In this document: positions 22,728 to 41,419 of the stretch, in pieces
How the letters are laid out: each line of letters starts with the position of its first letter
How positions within the stretch are numbered: the first letter of the stretch is position 1
Origin: Parabacteroides sp.
GTDB taxonomy: Bacteria > Bacteroidota > Bacteroidia > Bacteroidales > Tannerellaceae
DNA: 57,672 nucleotides
Assembly (NCBI GenBank): GCA_017937385.1
Contig: JAGBDR010000077.1
Span: 1 to 57,672 of the forward strand
Reading direction: 5' to 3'
Made by a program: the position numbers and the translations under genes
Notes under the pieces: generated by a model
Databases searched by the model: none
Seen by the model: the letters and a program-made list of their open reading frames with translations, nothing else
Told to the model about the DNA's origin: nothing

Positions 22728-22743
22728 TGTTATCCATAAAAAT

Positions 22744-25564: not shown

Positions 25565-25638
25565 AAACTCTTCGTGGCTTTTCATTTCTCTAACCCAGAC
25601 TTTTTTTTGAGTTTTTTAAAAATTTCAAACTCTTCGTG
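25565..25638. repeat. Pair of 12-bp direct repeats AAACTCTTCGTG
   Basis: AAACTCTTCGTG occurs at 25565-25576 and 25627-25638, 62 bp apart, each followed by a related CTNTTC, in the control region between the divergent DUF4248 and HU-like genes. They could be protein-binding sites. Confidence 0.5.
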
Positions 25639-25756
25639 TCTCTTCTTGGGTAATCCATTATATTTGTACTTTCCCTATTCTATTTTTTTAACAAAATAAT
25701 TATCCGATTAAGCGGGGAACATCCTTGTTGTTCCACACCAAGTTATTCTCTATCAA

Positions 25757-25764
25757 TATATTTG
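25757..25764 (+). promoter_or_regulatory. -7 box for the HU-like gene
   Basis: TATATTTG matches TAnnTTTG, 60 bases before the ATG. Another TATATTTG lies at 25659-25666. No clear -33 box is seen for either. Confidence 0.45.
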
Positions 25765-25823
25765 TATCATAATAAAAAGATATATATGTCTTTTGTCAAT
25801 GTTTCATTTAAATTGTTTAGGTT

Positions 25824-26270
25824 ATGGCTTTAAAGTATCGTTTAGTCCAAAGGAAGGACATGAGTAAAGATGCCGCTGAGGGGGCAAAGAAGTTTTACGG
25901 GAGTGTTTCCGCTACGGGGACATTGGGTTTTGACCAGATTTGTTCAAGTATCTCGGCTTACAGTACGGCTTCTCCGGGGGACGTCAAACTGGTGTTGGAC
26001 GGTCTGGTGTTTGTGGCTTCTGAGGCGTTGCTCAGAGGCGAAGTGGTTCAGTTAGGGGAATTGGGGAATTTCCAGTTGAAGATGAGCAGCACGGGGACAG
26101 ATACGGCGGCAGACTATGAGGCTTCCATGCTCAGCCGTCCGCATATCGTATTCCGTCCGAGCATCCGGTTGAAAACGGCAGTGGCGCGAGTCAGCGTGGA
26201 GAAGTGGCCGACCGTCTCCGGTACGACCGGTTCAGGCGGTGGTGAAGAAGAACGTCCGGGCGAATTATAG
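25824..26270 (+). CDS. HU-like DNA-binding protein
   Basis: The 148-residue protein starts MALKYRLVQRKD with the HU-type core (VVQLGELGNFQL, then RPHIVFRPSIRLK as the DNA-contacting arm) and a Gly/Glu-rich acidic tail. This is the long HU-related family that accompanies DUF4248 and VirE/DUF3987 genes in Bacteroidales. It should bind DNA as a dimer and bend or coat it. It is transcribed divergently from that pair and ends with a strong hairpin at 26286-26330. Confidence 0.88.
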   Translation: MALKYRLVQRKDMSKDAAEGAKKFYGSVSATGTLGFDQICSSISAYSTASPGDVKLVLDGLVFVASEALLRGEVVQLGELGNFQLKMSSTGTDTAADYEASMLSRPHIVFRPSIRLKTAVARVSVEKWPTVSGTTGSGGGEEERPGEL

Positions 26271-26285
26271 GTCGTAGGGATGCTA

Positions 26286-26330
26286 AAAGAGGCTGTGTCG
26301 TAATGTGATCAATTACTCTACAGCCTCTTT
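26286..26330. terminator. Bidirectional terminator
   Basis: AAAGAGGCTGT (26286-26296) pairs with ACAGCCTCTTT (26320-26330). It has T-rich tails on both strands and lies between convergent genes. The sequence is related to the hairpin at 20296-20332. Confidence 0.85.
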
Positions 26331-26353: not shown

Positions 26354-27241
26354 TTATTCTATGGTGCTGATCGTGGAAATCATACCAAACTTTTCGTTGT
26401 CGTTCAGGTTCCAGATTACTTCACCTTTATCGTTGATTTCGAATACTTGAGGGCTGTTGGCCTCTACTGCATTCTTGTCGTGTCCCTGCCAGTTGCAGAC
26501 ATACAAGCCGCCATCCTTTGCAGGAAGCAGCCCGGCTACGAAAAACAGGCGGGCACCTTTGATATCATTTTCCCCGAAACGGCGGACCACTTCACCCTTA
26601 TCAAGATTCACTTCCATCAGAGAATGACCGTCACCACAGGCAACCCAATGGTTTCCATTTGCCAATGCCAATGTTGTGAAAGGAGTCCCTTCCAAGCGGG
26701 TGATCTTCACGACTTCGCCTTTCGGAGAGATCTCACGCACGTCGGAAGTGGCAAAAAGAGGCATCAGGTAATTGCCGCGGGCATTCTTGTTCAACTGACG
26801 GAACTGGGCATGCGGATGCTCGATACCGGTTTCATATTCCGTACGCGACAGGATTTCGCCTTTCGGGCTTACCTCCATGATAACAGCCGGATGACCTACC
26901 CAGCCCAAGAGATAATTACCGTCCGGCAACACGCGGGCCGTCTGCATCTCGCAGGTATCAGGAGCTGCGATATTCCAGATTTCCTGATGGTTGCGGTCGA
27001 TCAGCTTCGCACCTCTGGCATAAGCGAAAAGAATGTTTCCATCGGGAGTGGCGACAGCCGAGTTGCATTCCCACCCTTTTTCAAGAGGATGTTCCCATTC
27101 TACCTGCTTGGTGTTCTTATCGATAATCACAATCTTGCTCCAGCCGGAACCACCCAACAGCAATTTTTCTGTTTTCTTCTCGCAGGAAGTAGCGGTCACC
27201 AGCAACAATGCGGAACAGAGATAAGTAAATATTTTACGCAT
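26354..27241 (-). CDS. Beta-propeller lipoprotein, last gene of the cytochrome/Dha cluster
   Basis: A lipoprotein signal (LLLVTATSCEKK, Cys ~20) is followed by repeated blade-like phrases (PDGNILFAYARG, PDGNYLLGWVG, ISPKGEVVKITRLEG, INDKGEVIWNL), giving a propeller of 6-7 blades related to arylsulfotransferase/PQQ-like repeats. No catalytic residues are recognised. The length is 295 aa. It starts 4 bases after the LsrF-like gene, so it belongs to the same transcript, and it could bind the substrate or escort electron transfer in the periplasm. The function is unknown. Confidence 0.75.
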   Translation of the reverse strand: MRKIFTYLCSALLLVTATSCEKKTEKLLLGGSGWSKIVIIDKNTKQVEWEHPLEKGWECNSAVATPDGNILFAYARGAKLIDRNHQEIWNIAAPDTCEMQTARVLPDGNYLLGWVGHPAVIMEVSPKGEILSRTEYETGIEHPHAQFRQLNKNARGNYLMPLFATSDVREISPKGEVVKITRLEGTPFTTLALANGNHWVACGDGHSLMEVNLDKGEVVRRFGENDIKGARLFFVAGLLPAKDGGLYVCNWQGHDKNAVEANSPQVFEINDKGEVIWNLNDNEKFGMISTISTIE

Positions 27242-27245
27242 ACGA

Positions 27246-28118
27246 TTACTTCGATAAGTCTTTGAACATTTCGAAACCTTGTTCCGGAGTCAAGCCTTCG
27301 TGTACGACAGCATGTACGGCCTGGATCATGGCGGCGGGGTTTTCGCTCTGGAAAACGTTACGTCCCATATCGACACCGGCAGCTCCGTCGTTGACAGCTT
27401 TGTAGCAAAGTTCGAGTGCTTCATTCTCAGGCAGTTTCTTACCGCCGGCGATCACTACAGGAACCGGACAAGCGGCTGCTACCTTTTCGAAGCCGTCGCA
27501 ATAGTAAGTCTTCACGATAGAAGCACCGTTTTCAGCACATACACGTGATGCGAGTGCGAAATAGCGGGAGTCACGCGCCATCTGTTTGCCGACAGCTGTC
27601 ACACCCATGACAGGAATGCCATAGCGGTTACCCAGGTCGACTGCTTCCACCAGATTGGCAGCTGTAATCGCTTCCTGCTCGCCATCGCCGGCAGCGAACA
27701 TGACTGCCATAGCGGATGCGTTACAACGGATTGCATCTTCCACGTCGATCAGAACGTTACGGTTCAACTCTGTCAGAATGGTCGTACCGGCATCCGAACG
27801 AAGGCAAACCGGTTTGTTGATGTTTGCGGGGATGGAAGTCTGCAAGATACCACGTGTACACATGATACAGTCTGCATACTGCACAAGGGGAACGATATTC
27901 AGGTCGATACGTTCCAAACCGGAAGTCGGCCCCATGATAAATCCGTGGTCGAACGCCAACATGACGGCACGGCCGGTTTTCGGGTTAAAAATACGAGAGA
28001 GGCGGTCTTTCATACCCCAAGAGTAGTTAGACGCACCTTTTACATGAAAATTGTCAAATTGAGAAGTCTGTCCAAAACCGAAGTTGTTTGCTTCTCTGAA
28101 ACCATCCATATCTGGCAT
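27246..28118 (-). CDS. lsrF: LsrF-type 3-hydroxy-5-phosphonooxypentane-2,4-dione thiolase / class I aldolase
   Basis: The family start (MPDMDGFREANNFGF) and the barrel motifs LAFDHGFIMGP, IVKTYYCDGF (Schiff-base Lys) and VVIAGGKK match LsrF, which in Escherichia coli transfers an acetyl group from the AI-2-derived phosphodione to CoA. The length (290 aa) is typical. No LsrK, LsrG or Lsr transporter is nearby; instead it follows DhaK and DhaL, so the substrate here may be a phosphorylated ketose or dione made by that kinase. The upstream gap is a heptamer-repeat hairpin. Confidence 0.88.
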   Translation of the reverse strand: MPDMDGFREANNFGFGQTSQFDNFHVKGASNYSWGMKDRLSRIFNPKTGRAVMLAFDHGFIMGPTSGLERIDLNIVPLVQYADCIMCTRGILQTSIPANINKPVCLRSDAGTTILTELNRNVLIDVEDAIRCNASAMAVMFAAGDGEQEAITAANLVEAVDLGNRYGIPVMGVTAVGKQMARDSRYFALASRVCAENGASIVKTYYCDGFEKVAAACPVPVVIAGGKKLPENEALELCYKAVNDGAAGVDMGRNVFQSENPAAMIQAVHAVVHEGLTPEQGFEMFKDLSK

Positions 28119-28130
28119 AGCAAAAAGAAT

Positions 28131-28215
28131 TATGATTTATGAATTATGAATTATTTGATTTATGATTTATGATTTATGATCGACGCATAAATCATAAATC
28201 ATAAATCATAAATTT
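28131..28215. repeat. Inverted ATTTATG heptamer repeat between dhaL and lsrF
   Basis: Tandem ATTTATG units on one arm face ATAAATC units on the other around the loop CGACG, giving a stem of more than 20 bp between two genes of one operon. It may set the relative level of lsrF. Confidence 0.75.
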
Positions 28216-28830
28216 TTAAAGCGCTTGCGCGAACGACTCAAACATACAGCTCCAGGAAGTAGCTCCGCTGTCGGCATAACCGATGGAGCGTTCACCGTAG
28301 TTGCGGGCACGACCGAAGTTGGCCTTCATTTCCACGGTCGAAGCAGCACCGGCAAGGGCGGCTTTCGCTCCGGCTTCAAGGATTTCCTTGATGTCGTCCG
28401 ACGGGCATGCCTGGATCGCTTCTACAGCCGGGATCAGGGCGTCCATCATAGTCTTGTCGCCTTTCTGTGCCTTGGTCTGTTTCTGCACGTTGGCAAGGCC
28501 ACCGGCAAACATGGCTTTCACGGCGGTTGCGTCCAGTTCCGTTCCGGAAGCATGGTCACTCATGCCCAAGAAGAAAGCACCCAACAGCGTACTGGTGGAA
28601 CCGCTTACCTGCAACATGACGTCAAAGCCCATATCGTTCAGCATGGCTTTGAACTCCGTGCCTTTCTGTGCCGTAGCGACAATCGCAGACATGGCTGTCA
28701 CGATGGCCTGGCCGTGGTCGCCGTCACCGATAACGGCATCCAGTTTAGAGAATTCGTCTTCACGTTCTTTGATGTTCTTCAAGGCGTTGTCGAGCATCGC
28801 CTTGAAGTTTTCAATAGTCAGTTGTTTCAT
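28216..28830 (-). CDS. dhaL: Dihydroxyacetone kinase subunit DhaL (ADP/ATP-binding)
   Basis: DhaL binds the nucleotide for phosphorylation of the substrate held by DhaK. The Mg-nucleotide motif DAVIGDGDHGQ and the later GSTSTLLGAFFLG and RARNYGERSIGYADSGATS segments are intact. I chose the ATG at 28830 (204 aa), 7 bases after dhaK; upstream codons in the frame overlap dhaK. No DhaM phosphotransferase gene is present, so an ATP-dependent reaction is more likely than PTS coupling. The natural substrate may be a C4-C6 ketose rather than dihydroxyacetone. Confidence 0.92.
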   Translation of the reverse strand: MKQLTIENFKAMLDNALKNIKEREDEFSKLDAVIGDGDHGQAIVTAMSAIVATAQKGTEFKAMLNDMGFDVMLQVSGSTSTLLGAFFLGMSDHASGTELDATAVKAMFAGGLANVQKQTKAQKGDKTMMDALIPAVEAIQACPSDDIKEILEAGAKAALAGAASTVEMKANFGRARNYGERSIGYADSGATSWSCMFESFAQAL

Positions 28831-28837
28831 ACCTTGT

Positions 28838-29854
28838 TTATTTACCGATTGTTGTCCAGTAAGGTGCATCAGCACGTTTGTTTTTCAGATAGTCGATATG
28901 ATCTTCGTCGAGGATAGCCATGATCATCTGGAAACCGGCCTGTTCTTGTACAGTCAGGATTTCCTGGATACGGCTCACTACAACCTGCAGGCCACGCGCT
29001 TCCAATTCCTTGTAGGCTTTGCGGAAGATGATGTTCAATTCCATGTGGGTAGTCGCTCCTACGCCATTGATGATAAGCATCATCTTGTCGCCGGCTTTCG
29101 GCTTGAGCTGCTGGCAAAGCAAGTCTACCATTTCGGCAGCTGTATCATCGGCTGATACAAGCGGTTTCTGTCCGCCACCGCCTTCGCCGTGCTGTCCCAT
29201 ACCGATCTCCATGATGCCCTGAGGCAGGTCGGTGATCGTACCGCCGTTCTGCGGATGCGTACAAGAACGCATGGCAACAGCCAAAGTTGCAACGTTGTTG
29301 TTATAGCGTTCTGCGATTTCAACCAATTCGTCCAGTGTCTTGCCCTCTTCTGCCGCAGCGCCCAGGATCTTATACAAAGGCACGCAACCGGCCAGACCGC
29401 GACGGTCGTTGATGTCGGCACCGATACCGGCACTGATATCGTCGTGAGTCAGCACTTGCTTTACTTTGATACCTACACGTTCTGCCAACTGGCAAGCCAT
29501 GTTTGCGCTCATCACGTCGCCGGAATGGTTCAATACGACCAACAGGATACCGGCTTCACGCTTCATCAACTGCAAAGCCTGGAACAGACGCTGTGCACCG
29601 GGAGCCGCAAAGATGTCGCCCACAACAGAGCAGTCCAACATACCTTCGCCTACGAATCCGCTCAATGCAGGTTCATGGCCGGAACCGCCCAATGTCACGA
29701 TAGCCACTTTGTCTTCACTCTTCGGGTTGGCACGTACAACGATATTTTCACCGCCCAACTTCACCTGATCCGGATAGGCCAATACATAACCTTCCAACAA
29801 TTCGGGTGTTATCTGTTCAGGATCATTTATAAATTTTGTCTTGATGTCTGACAT
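28838..29854 (-). CDS. dhaK: Dihydroxyacetone kinase subunit DhaK
   Basis: DhaK carries the substrate covalently as a hemiaminal on a His, here in GMGQHGEGG. The GGSGHEPALSG loop, the LNHSGDVMSA segment and the DDISAG region match the family. The length is 338 aa, slightly shorter than the E. coli protein. It is encoded 39 bases after the VOC gene and upstream of dhaL. Relatives in this superfamily phosphorylate dihydroxyacetone, erythrulose and other short ketoses, so the exact substrate is open. Confidence 0.93.
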   Translation of the reverse strand: MSDIKTKFINDPEQITPELLEGYVLAYPDQVKLGGENIVVRANPKSEDKVAIVTLGGSGHEPALSGFVGEGMLDCSVVGDIFAAPGAQRLFQALQLMKREAGILLVVLNHSGDVMSANMACQLAERVGIKVKQVLTHDDISAGIGADINDRRGLAGCVPLYKILGAAAEEGKTLDELVEIAERYNNNVATLAVAMRSCTHPQNGGTITDLPQGIMEIGMGQHGEGGGGQKPLVSADDTAAEMVDLLCQQLKPKAGDKMMLIINGVGATTHMELNIIFRKAYKELEARGLQVVVSRIQEILTVQEQAGFQMIMAILDEDHIDYLKNKRADAPYWTTIGK

Positions 29855-29893
29855 GGTATTTTCCTCCTTTATTTAATTATGTTATTACTACGA

Positions 29894-30208
29894 TTATTTA
29901 ACTTCCATGATTTCGATGGCGATACCTTCTTCTTCGATAAAGGCGATCGTCAGATGTTCGTCGCATACAGCCGGGCCGAAAATCACTTTCTTGCCTTTCA
30001 GTTCTTCTTCCAAGGAAGGAACAGTGTAAGCGATGTGTCCCTGTTTCTGTACCAATTCGGGCAGGCAGCTTCCTTCTTCGAATTTCAGGAATTCGATGCG
30101 GTTCGGACTTTTGCTGTAATCTGTCAACCAAACGCTCAAACCTTCGTTAAACACTGCGCCTTCTACTTGTTCTGTCGTTACGATACCGACGTGATTAAAT
30201 GTTCTCAT
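29894..30208 (-). CDS. VOC (glyoxalase) superfamily protein
   Basis: This 104-residue single VOC module (MRTFNHVGIVTT..., HIAYTVPSLEEE, IEIMEV) keeps the metal-ligand pattern His/Glu of vicinal-oxygen-chelate enzymes: His in NHVGIV, His in GHIAYTV, Glu near the end. Such proteins act as lyases, isomerases or epimerases on carbonyl compounds. Between the haem-assembly gene and dhaK it may isomerise or epimerise the carbonyl intermediate. It has no signal peptide. Confidence 0.8.
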   Translation of the reverse strand: MRTFNHVGIVTTEQVEGAVFNEGLSVWLTDYSKSPNRIEFLKFEEGSCLPELVQKQGHIAYTVPSLEEELKGKKVIFGPAVCDEHLTIAFIEEEGIAIEIMEVK

Positions 30209-30238
30209 GACTCATTCATTTTAAGTGTTTGTACTATT

Positions 30239-32695
30239 TTATTCGTTATCAGTTTTCTCTAAACCTATCTGTTTCCATCTTCTATAGGAAAGGGCTGCCA
30301 ACACCATGACGATCCCTAACGCGATATAAAGATAGATGAATATTCCATACACATGATCATTTTGGCCGTATGAATGCATTCCGCTCAGGAAATAATTGAC
30401 ACCGAAGAAAGTCATCAGCACGGAGGCAAACGCAATCACGGATGTCAAGTTGAACAGCCAAAGGTTATTCCAACGTTTCACCAGATGGAGATGAGTCACC
30501 ACGGCATAGACCACCATCGTGATCAGCGCCCAAGTCTCCTTCGGGTCCCACCCCCAGTAACGCCCCCAGGACTCATTCGCCCAGACAGCCCCGAGGAAAG
30601 TACCGACAGTCATCAAGGCAAGCCCTACCCAAAGCGCCATCTCATTGACAAGGCTCAGTTCGGTGATACGGGCTTTCAATATCTCTTGGTTCTTTTTTCC
30701 CATGACAGCCATCATCACCATGTCGGTCAACCCGATCAGGCAACTGATACCGAAGAAACCGTAAGCGGCGACAATGACCGCCACATGAAACATCAACCAC
30801 GGCGATTTCAGAACCGGCACGAGCGGATTGATCTCCGGGTCCATCCAGTTCAGGCCGGACACGAAAAGGATAATGCCCCCAAACAAGGTAGCCAGTGCAA
30901 ACGTGATCGTACTGCGGCGTGCGAACAACAACCCGGCCAGGACCGTCGCCCATCCCACGTAGACCATCGTTTCATAAGAATTGCTCCAAGGAGCGTAGCC
31001 GCCGATATACCAACGCATCCCCATACCGAACATATGATAATGGAAGACCACCAACACGCCGATCCCCAACAACCATACGGCAACCTTCATCCAGCGGCTC
31101 CGGCTGAACAACATCGCAAAAGATACCAACAACAAGCATCCACCCAAAACCAGATACCCAATCTTGCAATAGCGGAAAATATCCATCTTGTTATATTTCA
31201 ATTCGGCCTGTATCCGCTTCGGGCTGATGTCGAGCGCCTTGCTTTTGGCTTGCTGGTAGGTGTCGATCATGCTGACCACTTCGTCGGCTTTCGTCCAATC
31301 ACCATTCTTCAATCCATCCTGCACCTCTCCCAAGTACCAGTCGAAAATACGGGAAACAAACATGGAATCTTTGCCACTGAACGCCGAGAGGTCGTCACCG
31401 GGCGCATACCATTTATGATTCGGATCGTTCTCTTCCGGAAAGAGATTCAGCATCTGACGATTGATCAACTGATGGAAAATGTTCAGCTGTTCGTCCAGTT
31501 TCATCAGGTCCTTGTCGAAACGGGTCCGCTGGGCAGGCATTTTGTTATAGGCCTCCTCCAACTTCTCCTGCAACTTATAGTTGCCGTTGCTGTCGAACAC
31601 CTGGATATAGGCGCACTCGCCATCCGTCAGATCGAAACAGGCCGCCAGCTCCGGATTGGACAGGGCGATAAAAGGAACGCGCATCCACATATCCGGCATG
31701 GCCAAAAGGCTCAAAAGGAACTGGTCGGAGTTCAACTTGCCAATCTTATCCGACTTATGGAGTTTGCGGAGAATCTCCGAAGAAAAAGTGTTGACCGGCA
31801 TCATGCGGCCGTTGCCCGACTGGATCGGAAGAGCTCCGAAACGGGCAGCGTGTTCCGGGCTGACCACATACTTTTGTACAGCATCAAGCATCGGGGATGC
31901 TTGTTCTTTGCCATTTGCAGACAGGGAAACAGCCAAAAGCACAAGCGACAGGACCGTTCCGGAAGTCGCCTTGCGCAGTTCTTTCAAACGGCGGCTCTGA
32001 CGCATGAAGCGAGAGTGCCTGCCGACCAGACAAAGCACCAAGCCGATAACCAACAGAAGATAACCGGCATAGGTAATGTTCCGCCCCGCCACATCGCGGT
32101 TGACGGAAAGGATGGTTCCGTGTTCATCCGGGTCGTATGAGGCCTGGAAGAAACGATAACCTTTTACATCCAATACGTTATTCATAAAGATCCGCTCCTC
32201 ACGGTCCTCCCCGTCCACATGGACAATCACTTCGCTCTCGTAGGAAGAGGGGCTGGCGGAACCGGGATAGCGGGTTAAGGTGAATTTCTTCAGTTCAACG
32301 GAAAAAGGCAGGGTATGAAAAGTTGTGTTTTCGGAAGTACGGACAGTGATCTGGTCACTTGTCTCCCCTTCACGCAAATGCAGGATTCCTTCTTCGCCGA
32401 AAAGGAAAGAGGTCAAGGCGCCGAGAAGGATCACGATAAAGGCGAAATGAGTCAGGATCAGTCCCCATTTGCCACGTTTCAAGTATTGGTGTTTAAGAGT
32501 AGCCGCAAGAAAGTTGACGACTAAAAGGAATTGGAGCAAGAAAAACAGCGGGGAATAATAAACCATCGCTTTGGCTGCTGCCGTACCGTGATACTTTTCG
32601 ATGAAAGTAGCAACGGCCAAGCCAAAGGCATACACCAGTAACAAAACGATCGTCGTTACAAAGGAAGAGAAAAATCTTTCAAGATTTGTTTTCAT
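30239..32695 (-). CDS. ccsBA: CcsB(ResB)-CcsA fusion, system II cytochrome c assembly protein
   Basis: System II assembly exports haem and ligates it to CxxCH motifs. The N-terminal ResB part has three helices in ~10-110 and a periplasmic domain; after a further helix (~220) comes a periplasmic insert (~260-490) with GRMMPVNTFSSEILRKLH typical of Bacteroidetes. The C-terminal CcsA part has about eight helices and the haem-handling WGWDPKETWALI motif, with conserved His residues on flanking helices. It is 818 aa long. It lies in a cluster with two genes that carry CxxCH sites, which are its evident clients. Confidence 0.93.
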   Translation of the reverse strand: MKTNLERFFSSFVTTIVLLLVYAFGLAVATFIEKYHGTAAAKAMVYYSPLFFLLQFLLVVNFLAATLKHQYLKRGKWGLILTHFAFIVILLGALTSFLFGEEGILHLREGETSDQITVRTSENTTFHTLPFSVELKKFTLTRYPGSASPSSYESEVIVHVDGEDREERIFMNNVLDVKGYRFFQASYDPDEHGTILSVNRDVAGRNITYAGYLLLVIGLVLCLVGRHSRFMRQSRRLKELRKATSGTVLSLVLLAVSLSANGKEQASPMLDAVQKYVVSPEHAARFGALPIQSGNGRMMPVNTFSSEILRKLHKSDKIGKLNSDQFLLSLLAMPDMWMRVPFIALSNPELAACFDLTDGECAYIQVFDSNGNYKLQEKLEEAYNKMPAQRTRFDKDLMKLDEQLNIFHQLINRQMLNLFPEENDPNHKWYAPGDDLSAFSGKDSMFVSRIFDWYLGEVQDGLKNGDWTKADEVVSMIDTYQQAKSKALDISPKRIQAELKYNKMDIFRYCKIGYLVLGGCLLLVSFAMLFSRSRWMKVAVWLLGIGVLVVFHYHMFGMGMRWYIGGYAPWSNSYETMVYVGWATVLAGLLFARRSTITFALATLFGGIILFVSGLNWMDPEINPLVPVLKSPWLMFHVAVIVAAYGFFGISCLIGLTDMVMMAVMGKKNQEILKARITELSLVNEMALWVGLALMTVGTFLGAVWANESWGRYWGWDPKETWALITMVVYAVVTHLHLVKRWNNLWLFNLTSVIAFASVLMTFFGVNYFLSGMHSYGQNDHVYGIFIYLYIALGIVMVLAALSYRRWKQIGLEKTDNE

Positions 32696-32713
32696 TTACT
32701 GTTTTCATTATTT

Positions 32714-32753
32714 TGGACACCGCCTGTTCCAAAAGAGGAACAGGCCATGTCCA
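32714..32753. other. Intercistronic hairpin
   Basis: TGGACA and CCTGTTCC (32714-32730) pair with GGAACAGG and TGTCCA (32737-32753) around loop AAAAGA, with a 3x3 internal loop. There is no T tract on the minus strand, so it is more likely an mRNA-processing or stability element between the large haem protein and ccsBA than a full terminator. Confidence 0.55.
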
Positions 32754-32774
32754 AACATTTTAAAGCACGATTTA

Positions 32775-35700
32775 TCAATCTTCAATGATCATACGGAAGC
32801 CGACATTGAACACACGCTGGTACGGATAGTAAGCCTTACGTGTATAGGAAGCCGCATACTTCGGACGGTCGATATAAGAACCGCCACGGGCCACCTTGTA
32901 TTCGGATGTCTCTTTCGTCTTTTCATTATACGGATACGATACATAGTCGGAACGAGTCCATTCAGCTACGTTTCCGTGCATGCTGTACAGACCGAACGGG
33001 TTGGCTTCGTATGCCTTGCCGCCGACCTGAACCAAGTTGCCGTCGTCTACGCTTTCTTCTTTCGGAAGGAACGTATAGTATTTATACCACGGGTTGGTCT
33101 TCACCATCGGCTGCGGGTCTACACCGTAAACGGCAAACAACAGTGTCGTCTTGTCTGCCAGGTTGTCCTTCTTGCCGAAGTCCGTGTGCATGTCACCATA
33201 CCAGAAGTCCTGGTCGCTACCGGCGCGGCAAGCCCACTCCCACTGCGCTTCGGTCGGAAGCGTAATGTTCAAACCGGTCTTTTCGCTGACTTTCCGGCAG
33301 AATTCCATCGCATCGTTGTAGCTGACACGGATCACAGGCTGTTCCGGTTTGTTGGCCGGATATCCCTGGTTCACATGGTCCTTCCATTGCTGGTCTACAT
33401 AACGGCTGTCATGATCCGGGAATACAGTCTGGAACTGTTCGTTGGTCGTTTCCAGTTCTGCCATCCAGAATCCTTTGCTGATCTTCACCTTGGCTGTCGG
33501 ACGTACATCCGGTTCACCCTGATAGCTACCCATTACAAATTCGCCGGCAGGAATACGGACGAAGTTCACCTTCACACCCGGAGCGATCTCGACCACTTTG
33601 CGGGTTTCCGGTTCCTTGGCCAACATTTCCTTGATCCGGTCGGCACCGAACGGCCAGCCTTTCACCTTCACGGCCTTTTCCTTTACAGGAGCGGCCTTTT
33701 CAGGCATTTCCGGAGTGATCGGACCTTGCTTCTTCAAGTAATCGGCATAGTCGGCGATTTCCTTCTTCCAATCGACACCGGCGCCGTTTGCATACTTGTC
33801 GGTCAATTCCTTACGACGTTTGATCTGGTCGAATCCTTTATACGGGATCATATTCAGTACGTTCGCATTGAAATAACCTTTGTCAGGAGCGTTATAGTCG
33901 ATCCAGTTGTAAAGCGTCTTCCATTCCTTATCGGTCAGTTTCACGTTGTGATGGCCTTTCTTCAACAGGCGGACCAATTCACTGGTGTTAGGATGATATT
34001 CGTACGGCTGCAAAACAACCATATCGCCTTCACCACCCTGGCGATGCACATACGGATGCAGGTTCAAATATGACAATCCATATCCTCTCTCGTCTTTCTT
34101 TCCACCACGCAGGTCGAACGCTTTTCCTTCACCATTGTGACAAGCGATACAAGCGCGATCCAGGATCGGCTGCATTTCCAGGTCGAACGTGAAAGAACGG
34201 ACGCCACCTTCCGGCGGAGTCAAGGCAGACGGCGCCTTCTGCGAAGCGATCACACGCTTCGGTATCGCAATCTGGTTCTGGTCTTCGTGGCAACCGATAC
34301 AGGAAACCACTTCACCCGGCTGACCTGTCACCCAACTTCGCATCCACTGGATGGCAACCCCGTCTTTATCCAACGGCTGAATAGAGATCGGCGTATTGGC
34401 AGGAGCCTTGAAGATCACGGAACCGTCTTCTTCGACAGGAACCGTACCCAACAGACGTTTGATATCCCAACCGGACTGGATTCCGTGCCAGTTGTGGTCG
34501 GAACGTGTCTTCACATAAGCATATTCGTATGCATGCAGACGCAAAGACTTGACGGTTCCGCGAGGAATGCCTCTCAAACCTTCTCCTTCATAAATATCCT
34601 GAATAAAGAAGGTTGCTTCCTTTTCATTCAGTTTCACACGGTCGGGAATAGCCGGAGGCGTATTCGTCTTGCGCACCAATATCGGGCTGATGTATCCTTC
34701 GCCTTCTGCCTGCATCAAGCAAGTCACGTTGTCATAGACATCCACCAGATAAAGACCCCACAAAGCCTGCGGATCCAACTTGGCTGCCACCAAGAAATAC
34801 TTGTCGTTCAGCGGAGTCGGTTTGATGAACTGCGGCCATACGCCGTTCACCAACTGGTCTTTGATCAGTTCCTGAACCGGACGGTTACGGTGAGGGATTT
34901 CCTGTACCATACCGGCGGTGCTCTTACGTCCCTTAGTCGGGTCGAAAACAATCAGACGGCCGGAACGTGCCACACCGTGGTGGCCGGAGATGATACCCAC
35001 GAAAGCCGAGCCGTGGCCGGGTAAGGGCTGCACGTCGAACGTACTGTTCGGGAACATCGCGCCACTACCGTAGAGGGCTTTGTTTTCCGTTCCGTCCGGG
35101 TTCATGTGCATCACGATACGGGAATAATAGTGTGTCAAGTCGGTGTACTCCCAACGGGTGTACATCACGCGACCGTTATTCATGATCACCGGATTCCAGT
35201 TGGCATCCTGGTCGAATGTCAAACGGCGCAAGCTCTTGTCTTTCGGATCATACAACACCATATTGCCGACAGGGTCATCACCGCTCACGCAAGGAACCCC
35301 CTGGTAACCGATATTGGAAATCGCGATCACACGGCCGTCAGGCAGATAGGTTCCGTCGTAAAATTCCAGATCCGGCTCGTCATTTTCTACCAGCGGCTTG
35401 AAGCCTGTTCCGTCCAGATTCACTTCATAGACGTTCCAACGCTTGTCATCCTGCGTCTGGGTGAACATGACGCGGTCACCGTTCCAATGCAGCTTCAAAT
35501 CGGCAATGGAAGAACCGTTTTTCGGTTTGTAGACCTGGCGCATCTTTATATCGCCGCGCAAGTTGGAGAGCTCGACAATTTCAGCATCGAAACCTGAACG
35601 GGCGGCAGATTCCTGGTTACTCCAGTTGTTTGCCTGTGTACCCAAGGACGGCGACATGATGAAATGTGCATCCGAACCGACCTTGAAACGGGCCGCTACG

Positions 35701-36770
35701 ATCTTGTCTGCATCCAACAACGGGTTTGCCAACAAGATGGCGCGTTTATATTCCAACGCTTTCTTCGCGTCGGCCATGGCCTGCTCATTCTTGGAATAAA
35801 TTCCATTGAACCCTTTCTTATCCAAACGGATCAATTCGTTCAGCATCGGTTCATATTTGGCGGCGTCATAGCCTTTCTGTTTCTTCATATCGGCAAAAGC
35901 CAGCTTGACAGCCTCGACGTTCAGCCAATCCAAATCTCTTTGAAGAGCCGCCAGATCCTGGATTTCCTTGATCAGTTCCAGATATTTGCGGACCTGCGTC
36001 TCAAAATCCTGCTCATTGGCAATCTGTTTAGCCTGATTCGCATAGTAAGTGCCATCTTTCAGCGTAGCGATCGCCTTTTCCAACGCCTGCTTTTCCACAG
36101 AAGCGTCCGGAGTGACCAACCAAGTGTCGAAACCGCCCAAGATCGGATCCATCTCACCGATCTCATTCGGATATCCGGCGTTCAGTTCTTCCGCAATCTT
36201 ACCCGGCTGAACATTTACCGCCTGGAAATAAACACTACCTCCGCTCGACGAGTCGTCAATCCCGACCTCGGCTTCAAAACGGACATACTGGTTGTTGATC
36301 GGATAGACGAGCGTTCCGTTCGCATGACAGAACACGCCGTGCTTGTATTCCTTTCCGTTGATCACAATCTCATGATCGTATGCGTTGGTGTTCAGTTTGG
36401 GTTTCGCCCAACCTGCCACGCCATATTCATACGGAACTTCATCCAACCATACGGAAGTACCGTCTGCTTTGATCAGACGTGCGTTCGCCCAAACAGCCTG
36501 GTCATAGTCCGTACCGTCGGGACCACCGGAAGTGATCAGGACCAGCTTATCCACGCCTTTCAAGTCGACCACGAAAGGTTCCGCTTTCGCTTTGTGTTTC
36601 ATCCAAGTCGAACTGATCGGCATTCCGGATTTCTTCAGCTTTGCCAAAACCTCCGTCTTTGCCTTAACAGAAGCATCAATCCACGTTTCCACCTTCTTCT
36701 GCTTGGGGCCGGCTGACACCATAACAGAAGAAGACAGAAGGAGTGATACTAATAAATAGTATTTGTTCAT
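32775..36770 (-). CDS. Hydrazine synthase alpha-like multidomain haem protein with NPCBM-like and FGE-like domains
   Basis: The 1331-residue exported protein has a signal peptide (~1-20), an NPCBM-like carbohydrate-binding domain (~55-175; PFVVDLKGVDKLVLITSG) and a helical linker. A TolB/WD-like propeller (~330-720) and a region like hydrazine synthase alpha follow, with two c-haem sites: CIGCH (Cys824) and CIACH (Cys874). An FGE/sulfatase-modifying-factor domain (~1067-1331; IPAGEFVMGS, PTEAQWEWACRAG, GNVAEWTRS, ARGGSYIDR) ends it. The FGE domain lacks the catalytic cysteines after GGS, so it is probably a binding module. It should be a periplasmic di-haem redox protein matured by the CcsBA protein encoded next in the cluster; the substrate is unknown. 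Confidence 0.82.
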   Translation of the reverse strand: MNKYYLLVSLLLSSSVMVSAGPKQKKVETWIDASVKAKTEVLAKLKKSGMPISSTWMKHKAKAEPFVVDLKGVDKLVLITSGGPDGTDYDQAVWANARLIKADGTSVWLDEVPYEYGVAGWAKPKLNTNAYDHEIVINGKEYKHGVFCHANGTLVYPINNQYVRFEAEVGIDDSSSGGSVYFQAVNVQPGKIAEELNAGYPNEIGEMDPILGGFDTWLVTPDASVEKQALEKAIATLKDGTYYANQAKQIANEQDFETQVRKYLELIKEIQDLAALQRDLDWLNVEAVKLAFADMKKQKGYDAAKYEPMLNELIRLDKKGFNGIYSKNEQAMADAKKALEYKRAILLANPLLDADKIVAARFKVGSDAHFIMSPSLGTQANNWSNQESAARSGFDAEIVELSNLRGDIKMRQVYKPKNGSSIADLKLHWNGDRVMFTQTQDDKRWNVYEVNLDGTGFKPLVENDEPDLEFYDGTYLPDGRVIAISNIGYQGVPCVSGDDPVGNMVLYDPKDKSLRRLTFDQDANWNPVIMNNGRVMYTRWEYTDLTHYYSRIVMHMNPDGTENKALYGSGAMFPNSTFDVQPLPGHGSAFVGIISGHHGVARSGRLIVFDPTKGRKSTAGMVQEIPHRNRPVQELIKDQLVNGVWPQFIKPTPLNDKYFLVAAKLDPQALWGLYLVDVYDNVTCLMQAEGEGYISPILVRKTNTPPAIPDRVKLNEKEATFFIQDIYEGEGLRGIPRGTVKSLRLHAYEYAYVKTRSDHNWHGIQSGWDIKRLLGTVPVEEDGSVIFKAPANTPISIQPLDKDGVAIQWMRSWVTGQPGEVVSCIGCHEDQNQIAIPKRVIASQKAPSALTPPEGGVRSFTFDLEMQPILDRACIACHNGEGKAFDLRGGKKDERGYGLSYLNLHPYVHRQGGEGDMVVLQPYEYHPNTSELVRLLKKGHHNVKLTDKEWKTLYNWIDYNAPDKGYFNANVLNMIPYKGFDQIKRRKELTDKYANGAGVDWKKEIADYADYLKKQGPITPEMPEKAAPVKEKAVKVKGWPFGADRIKEMLAKEPETRKVVEIAPGVKVNFVRIPAGEFVMGSYQGEPDVRPTAKVKISKGFWMAELETTNEQFQTVFPDHDSRYVDQQWKDHVNQGYPANKPEQPVIRVSYNDAMEFCRKVSEKTGLNITLPTEAQWEWACRAGSDQDFWYGDMHTDFGKKDNLADKTTLLFAVYGVDPQPMVKTNPWYKYYTFLPKEESVDDGNLVQVGGKAYEANPFGLYSMHGNVAEWTRSDYVSYPYNEKTKETSEYKVARGGSYIDRPKYAASYTRKAYYPYQRVFNVGFRMIIED

Positions 36771-36798
36771 GTAATAAGTTATAAGGTGTTATTACTTA

Positions 36799-37560
36799 TC
36801 ATAACGAAGCTTTCGTGTTGGTGAAACGCAGACCATCATTATCATGGTAGCATGCCCATTCATCAACAATAGCACCTTCAGGACCAGCCATCATAAAGTG
36901 GAAAGATTCCAACTTTTTCAGGCGAAGAACATCACCTACATTCTGTACGACAAAGTTTTTGCTCTTGATCGCACCGTGAGTAGCAGGAATAGCGGGAGCA
37001 TTAGGTGTTTCATCACCGATTTCGGAGAAGTTGTATACCCATCCCTTTTCAACCATCCAGGATTCATGCTTAGCAGGGAATTTAGTCTTCACGTGGGCAT
37101 GTTCGGGGATCATCTGTCCCGGGAGCAGATAGATGGCGTGGGCAAAGTAGCCGTATTCAGGATCGTTGATCCAGAAAATACCACCCATACCTACGTTTTC
37201 AAAATCGCCCAGGCCGAAGTCTGTCACCCACATGTCCTTAGCCATCAAGTCGGTGAAAGGAACACCGTAGAAAGCGAACATGTCTTTCATTGCCTCCATG
37301 GCAACATCCTGTTGGAACTTGCCGTCTTTGTAGAAGTCGGCATTTGTGTACTTTTTAGAATACTTCATCTCTTTATTATTTTTACAGTTAGCAGTATTGT
37401 TACATGCATTCTTACAATTGTCTCCGCACTGTTCGGTGCATTGTCCTTCGCCTGCTGCGGCGCAACAGGTAGCTTCACCCGTAGAAGTTTTGCAGTTACA
37501 TGAAGCCATCGAAAGCAAAAGCGCTCCCATAGCGGCTGATTTCATAAAATTCTTTTTCAT
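36799..37560 (-). CDS. Cys-rich cupin lipoprotein
   Basis: A lipobox (LLLSMASCNC) starts a Cys-rich N-terminal segment (about ten Cys in ~45 residues, such as CNCK, TCC, QCGDNC, CNNTANCK). A cupin barrel follows (~65-250) whose metal site reads EHAHVKTKFPAKHES, resembling the D-lyxose isomerase type of sugar-isomerase cupin. The second motif has HFMMAGPEG. The length is 253 aa. It is predicted to be a periplasm-facing lipoprotein that binds a metal and perhaps a sugar, with extra metal or disulfide chemistry in the Cys region. It is encoded between the RidA-like protein and the large haem protein. Confidence 0.75.
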   Translation of the reverse strand: MKKNFMKSAAMGALLLSMASCNCKTSTGEATCCAAAGEGQCTEQCGDNCKNACNNTANCKNNKEMKYSKKYTNADFYKDGKFQQDVAMEAMKDMFAFYGVPFTDLMAKDMWVTDFGLGDFENVGMGGIFWINDPEYGYFAHAIYLLPGQMIPEHAHVKTKFPAKHESWMVEKGWVYNFSEIGDETPNAPAIPATHGAIKSKNFVVQNVGDVLRLKKLESFHFMMAGPEGAIVDEWACYHDNDGLRFTNTKASL

Positions 37561-37617
37561 TTTTCTCTTGTTTATTTAGTTAATACTATTTATGATTCGA
37601 TCCAAACAGAACTATCA

Positions 37618-37719
37618 CCCGATGCCTATGGGATTTCAGTTCCATGCCTATGGAATTTTTGTCCGATGCCCATGGAACTTTTATTCCATGCCCATGGAAT
37701 TTCTATTCGATGGCAATCC
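37618..37719. repeat. Four tandem 22-23-bp palindromic repeats
   Basis: The units TTCCATGCCYATGGAATTTTT (variants) stand head to tail, each a palindrome around CATGG. The last unit supplies the stop codon of the RidA-like gene. Related units lie at 16791-16830 and 13052-13141. Confidence 0.75.
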
Positions 37720-38797
37720 CTTCTATCTCTACCAGCAATTCATTCCGGCACACATCCGCCCACATGTAGGAAATCGGGATATTCAATCGATACCCTTCCA
37801 GTAACCGGTGTGCCTCTTCATAGAAGGACTTTTCTTTCAGATAGACGCGCAGCATCTTGAGTTTCGCCTGGCCGATCAGCTGGTCGATGTTCTCCATCGT
37901 AATGCGGATCTGGCGTTCGAGCCCGACCCCGATCAGGCTTTCTTCCCCACGGATAGCGGCCGTACCGGAAATATACACGATCCGGCGACCGTCGAAAGTC
38001 ATGCTTTTCGCCCGCTCGAACTTCGGCGTGGCTTTCTTCTGCTGGGCGGCTTCGAGGACCTGGTCCGAATAGGCATGGGCGGCCACCTGCAACTTATTGT
38101 CGATCGGAGTGGCATAACACTCGGGACGGGCAAATACAGCCGCGTCCAGATCAACCAATATGCCACCCAGATTGGCGCCGATACCGGTAGCTGCCGGATA
38201 GCCGTTGTTCCAGTCCGTCTTTCCATAGAAATCGGCACGAGCGTTATTGAACATCTGGTAATGTTGGTCCGGCCCGTCGAAACTGGTAATCCGCTCGATG
38301 TAGTTCCACTGGCGGATAATGTTGTTTATCGGGAAACCTTCGCGGCGCATCACCTCTCCTGTCATGTGAAAGACTTCGGCCGATTGTTGCTGGATGCCGA
38401 AATCGACCACATTGCCGTGGAAGCCGCCCGCAAAAAGGAAGCGGCCGTCGGCATTTTCCAGTACGACATACGGGAAACCGCCGTGGCGCCGGAAAGTAAG
38501 GTGATCGTTCTCATCCGTTTTGTAGCTGTGGGCTTCCAGGATCAGCCCGGTATTCAGAGGGGGCTGGGAGACGTAGCTCAACACCGGCTCATGATTACCG
38601 TAGAACTTACGGATCTTCTCGCGCAGCATGATACGACGGGAGACATACTGCTCATTGTCGCTGGGCATACCGAAAAATGCCAGGCGGAGAATCTGCTCGT
38701 CCTGGGGCAACTGTGCCAGCAAGGCGTCTACCATCTCACCGAAAGCTGCCAGCCCGGTCGTATAGATATTATAATGTATTTTATCGCAATAATTCAT
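37703..38797 (-). CDS. RidA/chorismatase-fold protein
   Basis: The C-terminal ~120 residues form a YjgF/RidA-like domain (YISGTAAIRGEESLIGVGLERQ, then RVYLKEKS) and the N-terminal half resembles the chorismatase (FkbO/Hyg5) layout: GGFPYVVLENADGRFLFAGG and RQWNYIERI. The length is 364 aa. Chorismatases hydrolyse chorismate; RidA proteins hydrolyse imines/enamines. No clear decision is possible from sequence alone. There is no signal peptide, so it is cytoplasmic. Its start overlaps the cytochrome gene stop by four bases (tight coupling). The C-terminus (EIEGIAIE) runs into a palindromic repeat array. Confidence 0.7.
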   Translation of the reverse strand: MNYCDKIHYNIYTTGLAAFGEMVDALLAQLPQDEQILRLAFFGMPSDNEQYVSRRIMLREKIRKFYGNHEPVLSYVSQPPLNTGLILEAHSYKTDENDHLTFRRHGGFPYVVLENADGRFLFAGGFHGNVVDFGIQQQSAEVFHMTGEVMRREGFPINNIIRQWNYIERITSFDGPDQHYQMFNNARADFYGKTDWNNGYPAATGIGANLGGILVDLDAAVFARPECYATPIDNKLQVAAHAYSDQVLEAAQQKKATPKFERAKSMTFDGRRIVYISGTAAIRGEESLIGVGLERQIRITMENIDQLIGQAKLKMLRVYLKEKSFYEEAHRLLEGYRLNIPISYMWADVCRNELLVEIEGIAIE

Positions 38798-40569
38798 AAA
38801 GAATTCACATATTCGGTTAATGCTTCAATCTCTTTCTCCGAAACTTTCTTCTCGATACCGTGTTTATGGACACTGAACACCTCTTTCATGGTTGCGGCAC
38901 GCCCGTCGAACAGATAGGGAGCCGTACGCCACACCTCACGCAAAGTCGGCGTGTCCCACCCTTTTTCAAACTCGATGTCTTCCCCGATCCGGTGATACTT
39001 CATATCCGTATAGTACACACCGCTGTGGCATTCGCCGCATTTCAGCTTTTCGAACACCTTCTGCCCTTCCTTGGCCAAGTCGGACAACTCGCCATTCACC
39101 AAGTAAGGACTGGGCACGGGACGAAGCGACTTCAGGTAGGCGTCCACGCAAACGGCATCCTCTTCCGAGACTTCAAAGAACTGGATGAAGTTGAATCCTG
39201 CCCGCACAGCCCGTTCCGCATGTTCACGGATACCGGAAATCATGTTGGGAGGAGTCACATGGCTGAAGAGCATGCTTTTGCAGTTCTTGGAGTTGCCGAC
39301 ACCGTCGTTCATCAAGTCCCAGTTCATGCCGTCGGTACGTCCGTCTCCGGGATGGCAACCGTTGCAGCTCTGCCAGTTCTGGAAGCAATGGGACGCATCG
39401 TTGAAATATCGTTCGCCTTTATTTTCAGGCGTTTCTTCCCGGTCGGGATTCAAATTGACAGATGTCACCTCGTTTGTCTGCGTGTCCAATATGTTCAGGA
39501 CATCGGCAAAATAAGTCGGGACAATCAGCCGGTCGCCGGCAAGGACCATATTGCGGGGACCGTTTCCCTGCAACGGGATCCGTTCACGAAGGCCATACAA
39601 GAAAGTCAGGTCATAGTCCAGCATCGCCTTATTGGGATAGTTCAGAAACTTCTCCAGCATCGCCTTATGGTCGATCACGCTGACTTCGTGCGTCCCCGAA
39701 TGGGAGATGAAGACCGACTCATCGTTGCAGGCAATGCTCCAGATACCGGCAGCTCCCCGCTCCGGCTCGTCCACGACAATCGCCCCCAAGAACTCCTGCT
39801 TGTCGACATCGATCACACTGAAAGCGCTCGTGTTCATCCAACCCTGTTGCAATTGCGAAGTCGGCACGGTGAAACGTCCCAAGTTGTGCGATACATATAT
39901 ATATTTACCGTCGGGAGTGATACAGATTCCCCGCAGGGCGTTGCTTCCGTTTGCCAGCTGGATGTCCTTAACCTTCGTGAACCCGTCCATTTCAATCACG
40001 GAGACACAGGCGGCCACATAGTCGACATCAGCCCGTTGGGCGGGCAGGAAGTTCGTGACGAACAGATATTTGCCATCCTTGCTGAACACGGCGGACCTCG
40101 GTTCGCGCAACACTTTCGCCGTACGGGTTACCTTCCGTTCAACCGGATCGACCTCGGAGATCGTCGCCTGGAACTGGTTACATACATAGATATGTTTCTT
40201 GTCCGGTCCAAGCATCGGATGACAAGCACCCGAACCGGTCGGGATCGAAGCCTCTACCTGGCCCGATTCGAGCGACAGGATCTGCAAATGGCCCATCGTG
40301 CCGAAAGTCGTCACATACGCCTTGTCGCCATCCACCAGGATGCCCGTAGGCGCTTCGTCCATCGGAAAAGAACGCAACAACGTTTTACCATCAGGCGAAA
40401 AGACATCAACCCGCTTTACTCCTTTGTCAGTCATCAACAACTCACCTTTCGCATTCGTCACAACATCTGTCGGAAAGAACGGTGGGTTGCCTGCTGAAGC
40501 AAAGGAAATACAACAGCAGGCAAAGCAAGCCACCAGTGAGTTTTTAAACATGTATTTTCGTGTATTCAT
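38794..40569 (-). CDS. YncE-like propeller fused to MauG/cytochrome c peroxidase-like di-haem domain
   Basis: A signal peptide (~1-26; VACFACCCISFASA) is followed by a YncE-like propeller (~30-370; repeated PDGKYIYVSHN-type blades). A di-haem domain (~385-591) follows with CNGCH (Cys402) and CGECH (Cys511), plus the signature TPTLREVWRTAPYLFDGRAAT of the MauG/CcpA family. Such enzymes reduce peroxide or oxidise protein or small-molecule substrates. Here the propeller probably presents a substrate. It is 591 aa long. It lies 5 bases after the IclR gene and overlaps the next start, so it is the second gene of the run. Confidence 0.87.
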   Translation of the reverse strand: MNTRKYMFKNSLVACFACCCISFASAGNPPFFPTDVVTNAKGELLMTDKGVKRVDVFSPDGKTLLRSFPMDEAPTGILVDGDKAYVTTFGTMGHLQILSLESGQVEASIPTGSGACHPMLGPDKKHIYVCNQFQATISEVDPVERKVTRTAKVLREPRSAVFSKDGKYLFVTNFLPAQRADVDYVAACVSVIEMDGFTKVKDIQLANGSNALRGICITPDGKYIYVSHNLGRFTVPTSQLQQGWMNTSAFSVIDVDKQEFLGAIVVDEPERGAAGIWSIACNDESVFISHSGTHEVSVIDHKAMLEKFLNYPNKAMLDYDLTFLYGLRERIPLQGNGPRNMVLAGDRLIVPTYFADVLNILDTQTNEVTSVNLNPDREETPENKGERYFNDASHCFQNWQSCNGCHPGDGRTDGMNWDLMNDGVGNSKNCKSMLFSHVTPPNMISGIREHAERAVRAGFNFIQFFEVSEEDAVCVDAYLKSLRPVPSPYLVNGELSDLAKEGQKVFEKLKCGECHSGVYYTDMKYHRIGEDIEFEKGWDTPTLREVWRTAPYLFDGRAATMKEVFSVHKHGIEKKVSEKEIEALTEYVNSL

Positions 40570-40574
40570 GGTAA

Positions 40575-41384
40575 TTATATTTTTTTTGCTTTACTATACC
40601 CTAATTCAAGAGAAATCGTCTGTGCCACTTTCTTTATACAATCGGCCGATGTCCGTACCACCTCTTTCGACAACCGGTCTTTCGGCCCCGAAATCCAGAT
40701 AGCCCCGCACGGATATCCCGTATAATTGAAGATCGGCGCCCCGATGCAGATCACACCGTTCAACTCTTCCTCATTATCCATCGCATAGCCCCAATTCCGG
40801 ACTTTCTCGAGTTCCTCTAAGTAGGCCTCCCGAGAGGTGATGGTCCGGGCATTGTAGCGCGTAAACTCCATATAAGACAAATACCGGTTCCGGACGGTAT
40901 TCGGCAGATAGGCCATGATCGCCTTTCCCGGAGCCGAACAATGCAAGTCGAACGATTTTCCCGGCGAGAGGACAAAACGGAACGTATGATGTCCCTGCGC
41001 CTGCTCGATAAAAATACCTTTCCGGTCTCCCAGCACGCCGAAACAGGCCGTCTCTTTCACCTGGTCGCGCAAATCACGCAAGCGAGGCAAAACCGTTTCC
41101 AGCAAATTGTGTTCGTTCAGCGATCTGAAGCCCAAAGTTAGTAATTTGCGGGACAACTTGTATCGTTTTGTGTCTTCATTATACATCAAATAATCCAGAC
41201 GCACCAACGTATTCAAAATACGATAGGCCGTCGTCTGCGAAATATCAAGGGCCGACTTGATTTCCTGAAGCGTATCACCCTGGGTGTGAAGCGACAAGTA
41301 CTCAAGTACAGCAATCCCTTTCTCGAGATTCGGAACCTTGTAGTTCTCTTCTGCTTTTTCCATATTTGAAATTACGCTTTCCAT
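40575..41384 (-). CDS. IclR family transcriptional regulator
   Basis: The N-terminal winged helix (~18-75; KGIAVLEYLSLH, TLQEIKSALDISQTTAYRILNTLVRLDYL) and the C-terminal IclR effector domain (~90-262; FRFVLSPGKSFDLHCSAPGKAIMAYLP, GAPIFNYTGYPCGAIWISGP) are typical. The length is 269 aa; an internal Met at codon 8 is another possible start. It is the first gene of the run and probably controls it: a perfect TGAAAT-ATC-ATTTCA palindrome sits between the -7 box and the start. IclR proteins usually sense aromatic, sugar-acid or glyoxylate-type effectors; the effector is unknown here. Confidence 0.93.
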   Translation of the reverse strand: MESVISNMEKAEENYKVPNLEKGIAVLEYLSLHTQGDTLQEIKSALDISQTTAYRILNTLVRLDYLMYNEDTKRYKLSRKLLTLGFRSLNEHNLLETVLPRLRDLRDQVKETACFGVLGDRKGIFIEQAQGHHTFRFVLSPGKSFDLHCSAPGKAIMAYLPNTVRNRYLSYMEFTRYNARTITSREAYLEELEKVRNWGYAMDNEEELNGVICIGAPIFNYTGYPCGAIWISGPKDRLSKEVVRTSADCIKKVAQTISLELGYSKAKKI

Positions 41385-41387
41385 ATT

Positions 41388-41419
41388 TGAAATATCATTT
41401 CAGATTTGGAACAAATATA
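41388..41419 (-). promoter_or_regulatory. Promoter and operator of the iclR-cytochrome operon
   Basis: TATATTTG on the minus strand (41412-41419) is a perfect -7 box. TGAAATATCATTTCA (41388-41402) is a perfect 6-3-6 palindrome over the predicted transcription start, and a half-site TTTGAAAT with the same CCATA lead lies at 41366-41373. No -33 TTTG is seen at the right distance, which fits a weak or activated promoter. Confidence 0.65.

Follow-up and report, generated by a model that had tools for sequence, protein, structure and literature searches.

A stretch of 57,672 nucleotides from Parabacteroides sp. (assembly GCA_017937385.1, contig JAGBDR010000077.1; hereafter the window) contains a cluster of 11 minus-strand genes, at positions 26354-41384, in which hydrazine synthase (HZS)-like haem genes are combined with sugar-type partner genes. 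The cluster is conserved in some gut Bacteroidales, and its gene content suggests that a rare HZS-like haem complex has been redirected from nitrogen to sugars. By homology, the cluster encodes a c-type haem pair representing all three HZS subunits, the assembly protein CcsBA, and a lipoprotein of the lyxose isomerase family, together with DhaKL, LsrF, VOC-like, and chorismatase-like proteins under an IclR regulator. A first-pass annotation had described eleven minus-strand genes running from an IclR gene to a propeller lipoprotein, several with 4-bp overlaps or gaps below 10 bases. This layout was borne out, as was the start at 26354; the end it gave, 41419, lies 35 bases past the IclR start. 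The genes are listed in order of transcription, followed by a hairpin.

40575..41384, minus strand: IclR-family regulator, first gene (PF01614 1.9e-41, PF09339 2e-10)
38794..40569, minus strand: HZS beta-gamma-like fusion (propeller and di-haem domain, CxxCH at residues 402 and 511)
37703..38797, minus strand: FkbO/Hyg5 chorismatase-like (RidA-fold) protein (TIGR04444 1.4e-26, below cut-off; 5ag3 3.2e-15)
36799..37560, minus strand: lipoprotein cupin, D-lyxose/D-mannose isomerase family
32775..36770, minus strand: NPCBM, HZS-alpha-like region (propeller, middle domain, CxxCH at 824 and 874), and formylglycine enzyme (FGE)-type domain
30239..32695, minus strand: CcsBA (ResB and CcsB) cytochrome c assembly protein (PF01578 8.7e-35, PF05140 3.2e-23)
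29894..30208, minus strand: short VOC-like protein (H6, E39, H58, and E99 invariant in 12/12; glyoxalase-I match 0.014)
28838..29854, minus strand: DhaK-type dihydroxyacetone kinase subunit (PF02733 2.5e-97)
28216..28830, minus strand: DhaL-type subunit, 204 aa (PF02734 2.5e-38; the listed open reading frame starts at 28875)
27246..28118, minus strand: LsrF, 3-hydroxy-5-phosphonooxypentane-2,4-dione thiolase family (NF006081 439.7 bits)
26354..27241, minus strand: Mal s 1-like beta-propeller lipoprotein, last gene (PF22701 1.2e-67; 3no2_A 9.7e-120)
26286..26330, no strand: terminator-like hairpin directly past the last gene (inverted repeat, 19-nt arms, 84% complementary)

Four of the ten junctions overlap or span at most 7 bp: IclR/beta-gamma (5 bp), beta-gamma/RidA-like (-4), LsrF/propeller (4), and DhaK/DhaL (7 bp if DhaL starts at 28830, which gives a 204-aa protein matching the length in several relatives). 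The remaining six measure 28-142 bp. The source assembly (3.73 Mb, 128 contigs, 90.5% complete) includes the window as contig C81, and the nearest named match of the beta-gamma gene is in Parabacteroides massiliensis (94% identity).

The two haem proteins together make up a complete HZS-like set, a point that the first-pass annotation had missed. Against the sequences of the anammox HZS structure, the beta-gamma protein matched 5c2v_C (2.2e-18) and 5c2v_B (9.5e-16), and a profile search placed 5c2v_B (2.2e-31) and 5c2v_C (1.1e-26) on one fused protein. It also matched NF052342 hydrazine_BC (4.6e-31) with 107.7 bits, under the cut-off of 1250. The earlier description of this gene as a plain YncE-MauG fusion was rejected, because both halves find matches among models and structures of HZS beta and gamma; for the propeller part alone, a surface-layer propeller (1l0q) outscores HZS beta. 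The alpha protein shows HZS homology by profile, and the HZS alpha fold (propeller, middle domain, and C-terminal di-haem region) was matched over 551 residues; with the NCBIfam HZS alpha model it scores 46.2 bits, under the cut-off of 800. The likeness to anammox HZS (PDB 5C2V) thus extends to the alpha fold, the beta propeller, the gamma di-haem part, and the haem motifs, two in alpha and two in gamma. Unlike anammox HZS, the window's pair has Ile at gamma His144, carries NPCBM and FGE-type domains (Pfam) fused to alpha, and lies in a sugar-type operon of a non-anammox host. We rejected a formylglycine enzyme as the identity of the alpha fusion, which lacks the C-terminal catalytic Cys pair at the positions we take it to occupy: its FGE-type domain holds only C1158 and C1181, and the final 46 residues of alpha are free of Cys.

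Hagglund et al. (2025, PMC12758564), cited here from excerpts, described clades I-IV of HZS-like homologues in organisms other than anammox bacteria. There, alpha is co-located with a fused beta-gamma, Bacteroidota are named for beta-gamma, and the same fusion is reported in Ca. Scalindua japonica; the homologues have no known function and are presented as a main clue to the origin of HZS. The main text of the paper contains neither the word sugar nor the word carbohydrate. From our alignment to HZS gamma and that paper's residue numbering, Ile444 of the window's protein falls at the site of gamma His144 and of the CCP/MauG Trp. It is Ile in 80/80 close homologues; the four intermediate forms carry Ile, except for one with Val. 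Clades I-III carry Trp at this position and have FG-GAP/CRTAC1 neighbours, according to the excerpts, and the residue therefore sets the window's family apart by alignment from those clades as well as from anammox HZS. Cys395 and Trp399, just ahead of the first haem motif, were present in 80/80 close homologues. The position of gamma Cys165, which makes an extra haem bond, falls in a gap of the beta-gamma alignment to 5C2V, and the printed alpha alignment stops ahead of the alpha Tyr591/Zn site. Six divergent Bacteroidales beta-gamma homologues (L032-L037) have Trp at the CCP/MauG position and three haem motifs; by our own comparison, made without a tree, they resemble clade III as the excerpts describe it. 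Their genes share recurring neighbours. We conclude that the cluster belongs with the HZS-like complexes, a known kind without known function, and that its sugar-type form is a new variant; we did not find the cluster described in the open-access PMC literature (bioRxiv not included).

The association of the haem genes with DhaKL and LsrF, proposed by the first-pass annotation and named there as its point of refutation, was strongly supported by a conserved neighbourhood, two gene orders, and co-occurrence. A contig scan returned 264 beta-gamma relatives, of which the best 80 were kept. Among 60 well-covered loci (at least 9.9 kb downstream), cupin and alpha genes were found in all 60, and partners encoding DhaK in 49, VOC in 48, chorismatase-like protein in 46, IclR in 45, and CcsBA in 42. 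The figures for DhaL (27), LsrF (20), and the propeller (13) are undercounts, because the 10-kb flank cuts the operon. Where both genes were present (49 loci), alpha stood ahead of DhaK in 39 and behind it in 10 (L103, L105-L109, L111, L112, L114, and L115); the latter arrangement came from Bacteroides cellulosilyticus, B. nordii and relatives, Alistipes, Millionella, and Rikenella. The recurrence of this gene content in several genera and two gene orders argues that the cluster is more than a chance grouping. Distances of eight partner genes correlated with beta-gamma distances (r 0.68-0.91, pairwise and without a control gene). Named cultured Bacteroidales with homologues include Parabacteroides goldsteinii, P. 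gordonii, Bacteroides salyersiae, and B. cellulosilyticus. The distribution is patchy. In a phylum-wide sample, 4/395 genomes matched at E <= 1e-60 (the source genome, its genus, and two distant genomes).

We examined co-occurrence in 247 Bacteroidales genomes, taken as one identical sample for the beta-gamma, DhaK, and LsrF scans, with identity cut-offs chosen after a gap in the identities had been seen. Beta-gamma relatives were present in 15 genomes at E <= 1e-20 and in 8 at >=56% identity. DhaK at >=71% and LsrF at >=67% were each found in 7 genomes; these were the same 7, all within the 8 with close beta-gamma, and the eighth is 61% complete. The hypergeometric probability is 7.8e-13, a value that treats related genomes as independent, some of the 7 being congeners. 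Distant homologues were also seen, of DhaK in six further genomes (33-37%) and of LsrF in one (43%). Where beta-gamma was of intermediate identity (two genomes, 49% and 47%), close DhaK and LsrF were absent. Since the same genomes carry both, close DhaK and LsrF form a linked pair that this sample shows exclusively alongside the haem genes, while the core of haem and cupin genes also occurs on its own. The cluster has a haem/cupin core, to which DhaKL, LsrF, and VOC form an add-on that is missing in some lineages. Overall, the observation made in the first-pass annotation was confirmed and is stronger than was stated there, and its interpretation was partly supported.

The family assignments that the annotation had made held and could in part be sharpened. 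The cupin has the fold and all four metal ligands (His-His-Glu-His) of the D-lyxose isomerase family, like the D-lyxose/D-mannose isomerases 7NZO and 2Y0O; its structure model, with a pLDDT of only 58, was compared against the VIA listing, and the fold assignment holds among the families given there. Unlike those isomerases, it is a lipoprotein with a Cys-rich leader in an operon with cytochromes. LsrF exceeds the NF006081 cut-off (439.7 bits against 297) and is identical to E. coli LsrF in 150/287 aligned columns (52%); K203, presumably the catalytic residue, was invariant in 9/9. The Dak1 and Dak2 domains are present as separate DhaK and DhaL subunits (Pfam), both under their NCBIfam equivalog cut-offs (288.6 against 406.25 and 133.6 against 138.3, respectively). 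The protein first called RidA-like proved to be FkbO/Hyg5 chorismatase-like. It scores 93.5 bits with TIGR04444, far under the cut-off of 325, and its Cys350 and Glu357, invariant in 7/7, align with a Hyg5-type sequence. No signal peptide was seen in it by eye. The VOC assignment of the short protein is weakly supported; it had zero Pfam matches.

From these parts, we propose a mechanism in which the periplasmic HZS-like complex would take electrons from a sugar or deoxy-sugar bound by the NPCBM and FGE-type domains. The cupin would shift the carbonyl (aldose-ketose isomerisation) to give a 2,4-diketose of the type HOCH2-CO-CHOH-CO-R, which would enter the cell. DhaK-type kinases target a CH2OH group adjacent to a ketone, which DhaKL would phosphorylate here. 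LsrF would then cleave C3-C4, yielding dihydroxyacetone phosphate (DHAP) and R-CO-CoA in a thiolase mode or an aldehyde in an aldolase mode; the relevant parts of two papers have LsrF converting P-HPD to DHAP and acetyl-CoA (PMC8016206, PMC6410053). The electrons could pass to menaquinone through an NrfH-FGE cytochrome encoded elsewhere in the genome. We favor a 2,4-diketose as the simplest common intermediate, since a ketol isomerase before DhaKL and LsrF would supply the HOCH2-CO- end, and with such an intermediate oxidation would be the natural job of the haem complex. We give about even chances that the cluster serves, by this mechanism, to break down a sugar or a hydroxy-ketone derived from one. 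The fully specified version, in which an HZS-family complex of gut Bacteroidales oxidises periplasmic sugars to diketoses that a lyxose-isomerase-like lipoprotein, DhaKL, and LsrF turn into DHAP and acyl-CoA, is a tentative proposal that we rate somewhat below even.

The genomic surroundings in some lineages point to carbohydrates. In L097, SusC, SusD, DUF4959/5126/5000, and DUF4998 genes form a series in line with beta-gamma that ends 0.4 kb upstream, and in L109 a SusC-SusD pair does the same, ending 0.5 kb upstream; SusC/SusD were Pfam-confirmed in both. SusC and SusD matches were also found in L106, L073, and L118. Loci of the B. cellulosilyticus group have glycoside hydrolases (GHs) GH31 and GH36 and a hybrid two-component regulator (HTCS) upstream, L061/L095 have GH36, L147 has GH29 and GH95, and L146 has five sulfatase-like genes. 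In these lineages the cluster resembles Bacteroidales polysaccharide utilisation loci (PULs), which adjoin it through SusC/SusD, GHs, or HTCS; the window's copy does not share this. L023 (2763-12271) holds a second HZS-like alpha/beta-gamma pair, preceded by genes for two DUF6905 proteins, FGGY kinase, Zn-dehydrogenase, and DeoC and followed by GH43 and GH2. Judged from the gene content, the kinase, dehydrogenase, and DeoC seem to replace the DhaKL-LsrF-VOC half, a predicted case of the same kinase-plus-aldolase logic in other parts. The sugar pathway suggested by the first-pass annotation thus gains from the isomerase-family cupin and from glycan-utilisation neighbours in some other lineages, while the oxidation, uptake, and mode of cleavage that it envisaged stay conjectural.

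Several observations weigh against a sugar-catabolic route. Glycan-type neighbours occurred in 21/91 loci, a count made with 13 representatives and without a background rate, and the in-line arrangement in L097 and L109 therefore weighs more. With the representative set, there were zero SusC/SusD or glycosidase matches beside the window's own cluster; using two SusC and two SusD representatives, the window yielded a short SusC plug-like match at 18118-18276, 8 kb off, and zero SusD. HZS-like pairs in L148, L149, L151, and L152 have no glycan-type neighbour, and that in L152 adjoins ribosomal protein genes (by eye). The cluster is without a transporter or electron carrier. Of 12 genomes with DhaK-less loci, 10 lacked both DhaK and LsrF at E <= 1e-20 and two had both; the pathway is therefore not obligatory for the haem genes. 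A periplasmic site for the cupin is likewise predicted not to be universal: a lipobox-like pattern appeared in 57/73 homologues, and the N-terminal extension is missing in 10/73. The proposed route leaves the chorismatase-like protein and the VOC-like protein without an assigned role.

The likeliest of the alternatives is a non-Lsr route for autoinducer-2 (AI-2)/1-deoxypentosone. Here the cupin would convert DPD to 3,5-dihydroxy-2,4-pentanedione, DhaKL would make P-HPD, LsrF would release DHAP and acetyl-CoA, and the haem complex would make or clear related dicarbonyls. The window's LsrF is closely related to E. coli LsrF, which forms these products (in the cited parts of PMC8016206 and PMC6410053), a kinase precedes the thiolase as in the E. 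coli LsrK-LsrG-LsrF pathway, and a ketol isomerase followed by DhaKL could stand in for LsrG and LsrK. Unlike E. coli lsr, the cluster has DhaKL for LsrK, lacks LsrG, the Lsr transporter, and any AI-2 receptor, and adds a haem complex; LsrK and LsrG were sought in the cluster only, not in the rest of the genome. With the haem complex, the NPCBM domain, and the polysaccharide-locus neighbours unaccounted for, we consider this route unlikely. Defence against peroxide or reactive carbonyls, by a CCP/MauG-like peroxidase with carbonyl-disposal enzymes, would draw on the di-haem CCP-like domain (3o5c 2.9e-9) and on the handling of carbonyls by DhaKL, LsrF, and VOC proteins. The CCP/MauG Trp position is Ile here, however, whereas the six divergent Bacteroidales homologues retain Trp, and IclR and HTCS regulators with SusCD neighbours in some lineages favor nutrition; we judge defence quite improbable.

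A biosynthetic role, in which LsrF condenses DHAP made by DhaKL, the chorismatase-like enzyme provides an aromatic, and the haem complex finishes an exported product, would fit the resemblance of the RidA-like protein to chorismatase and the biosynthetic function of the LsrF relatives MJ0400 and BagB/FevI. It is very unlikely in our view, given the PUL-type neighbours and regulators in some lineages, the TIGR04444 score of 93.5 against 325, and the 14/60 well-covered loci in which the chorismatase-like gene was not found. Finally, the complex might still perform nitrogen chemistry on nitric oxide, hydroxylamine, or hydrazine in the gut, as could be implied by the presence of homologues of all three subunits, alpha and gamma carrying two haem motifs apiece. 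The replacement of gamma His144 by Ile in 80/80 homologues and the sugar-type partner genes make this the least probable explanation, and a highly improbable one.

If a sugar-catabolic role is correct, c-type cytochromes would serve sugar chemistry in anaerobic bacteria that degrade glycans, and the enzyme that forms the N-N bond in anammox would appear to share one ancestor with a sugar-oxidising complex. The cluster partners narrow the possible substrates, and the cultured hosts make function testable. A ruminant gut metagenome study, cited from excerpts (PMC12784710), reports hydrazine synthase (K20934), with Clostridium as a possible host and Bacteroides as a possible reservoir of anammox-associated genes. 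Such counts might reflect HZS-like homologues rather than anammox.

Other features of the source genome concern cytochrome assembly and electron transfer. CcsBA gave a single match and is the only copy found. We dropped the idea that it is dedicated to the HZS-like pair, as the same genome also encodes the NrfH-FGE protein, a fusion of a NapC/NrfH-type multihaem cytochrome with an FGE domain (L205:4755-6338, G000:C12). This FGE domain is 27% identical to that of alpha (8e-20), and no NrfA was found when looked for. Near the NrfH-FGE gene lie genes for Gfo/Idh/MocA oxidoreductases, a Tat-signal TIM-barrel isomerase, and, by eye, a GH2-like protein; this may be a second cytochrome-linked sugar locus.

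The chorismatase-like family is commoner than the cluster (29/247 genomes), and its genes at 12 loci elsewhere have scattered neighbours that point to no clear function. One homologue (L199:8436-9587) lies just downstream of genes that look like araA, araD, and a ribulokinase gene, by eye only. A Bacteroides promoter consensus had 4 matches in the window and 0 in the cluster, with at least 4 in 5/100 shuffles. Between dhaL and lsrF (28127-28215) lie AT-rich imperfect ATTTATG repeats able to form long hairpins. The 3' end of the cluster is adjoined (20490-26270) by what, by eye, is a gene set of the kind found in Bacteroidales integrated elements, with HU-like and VirE/DUF3987-like members.

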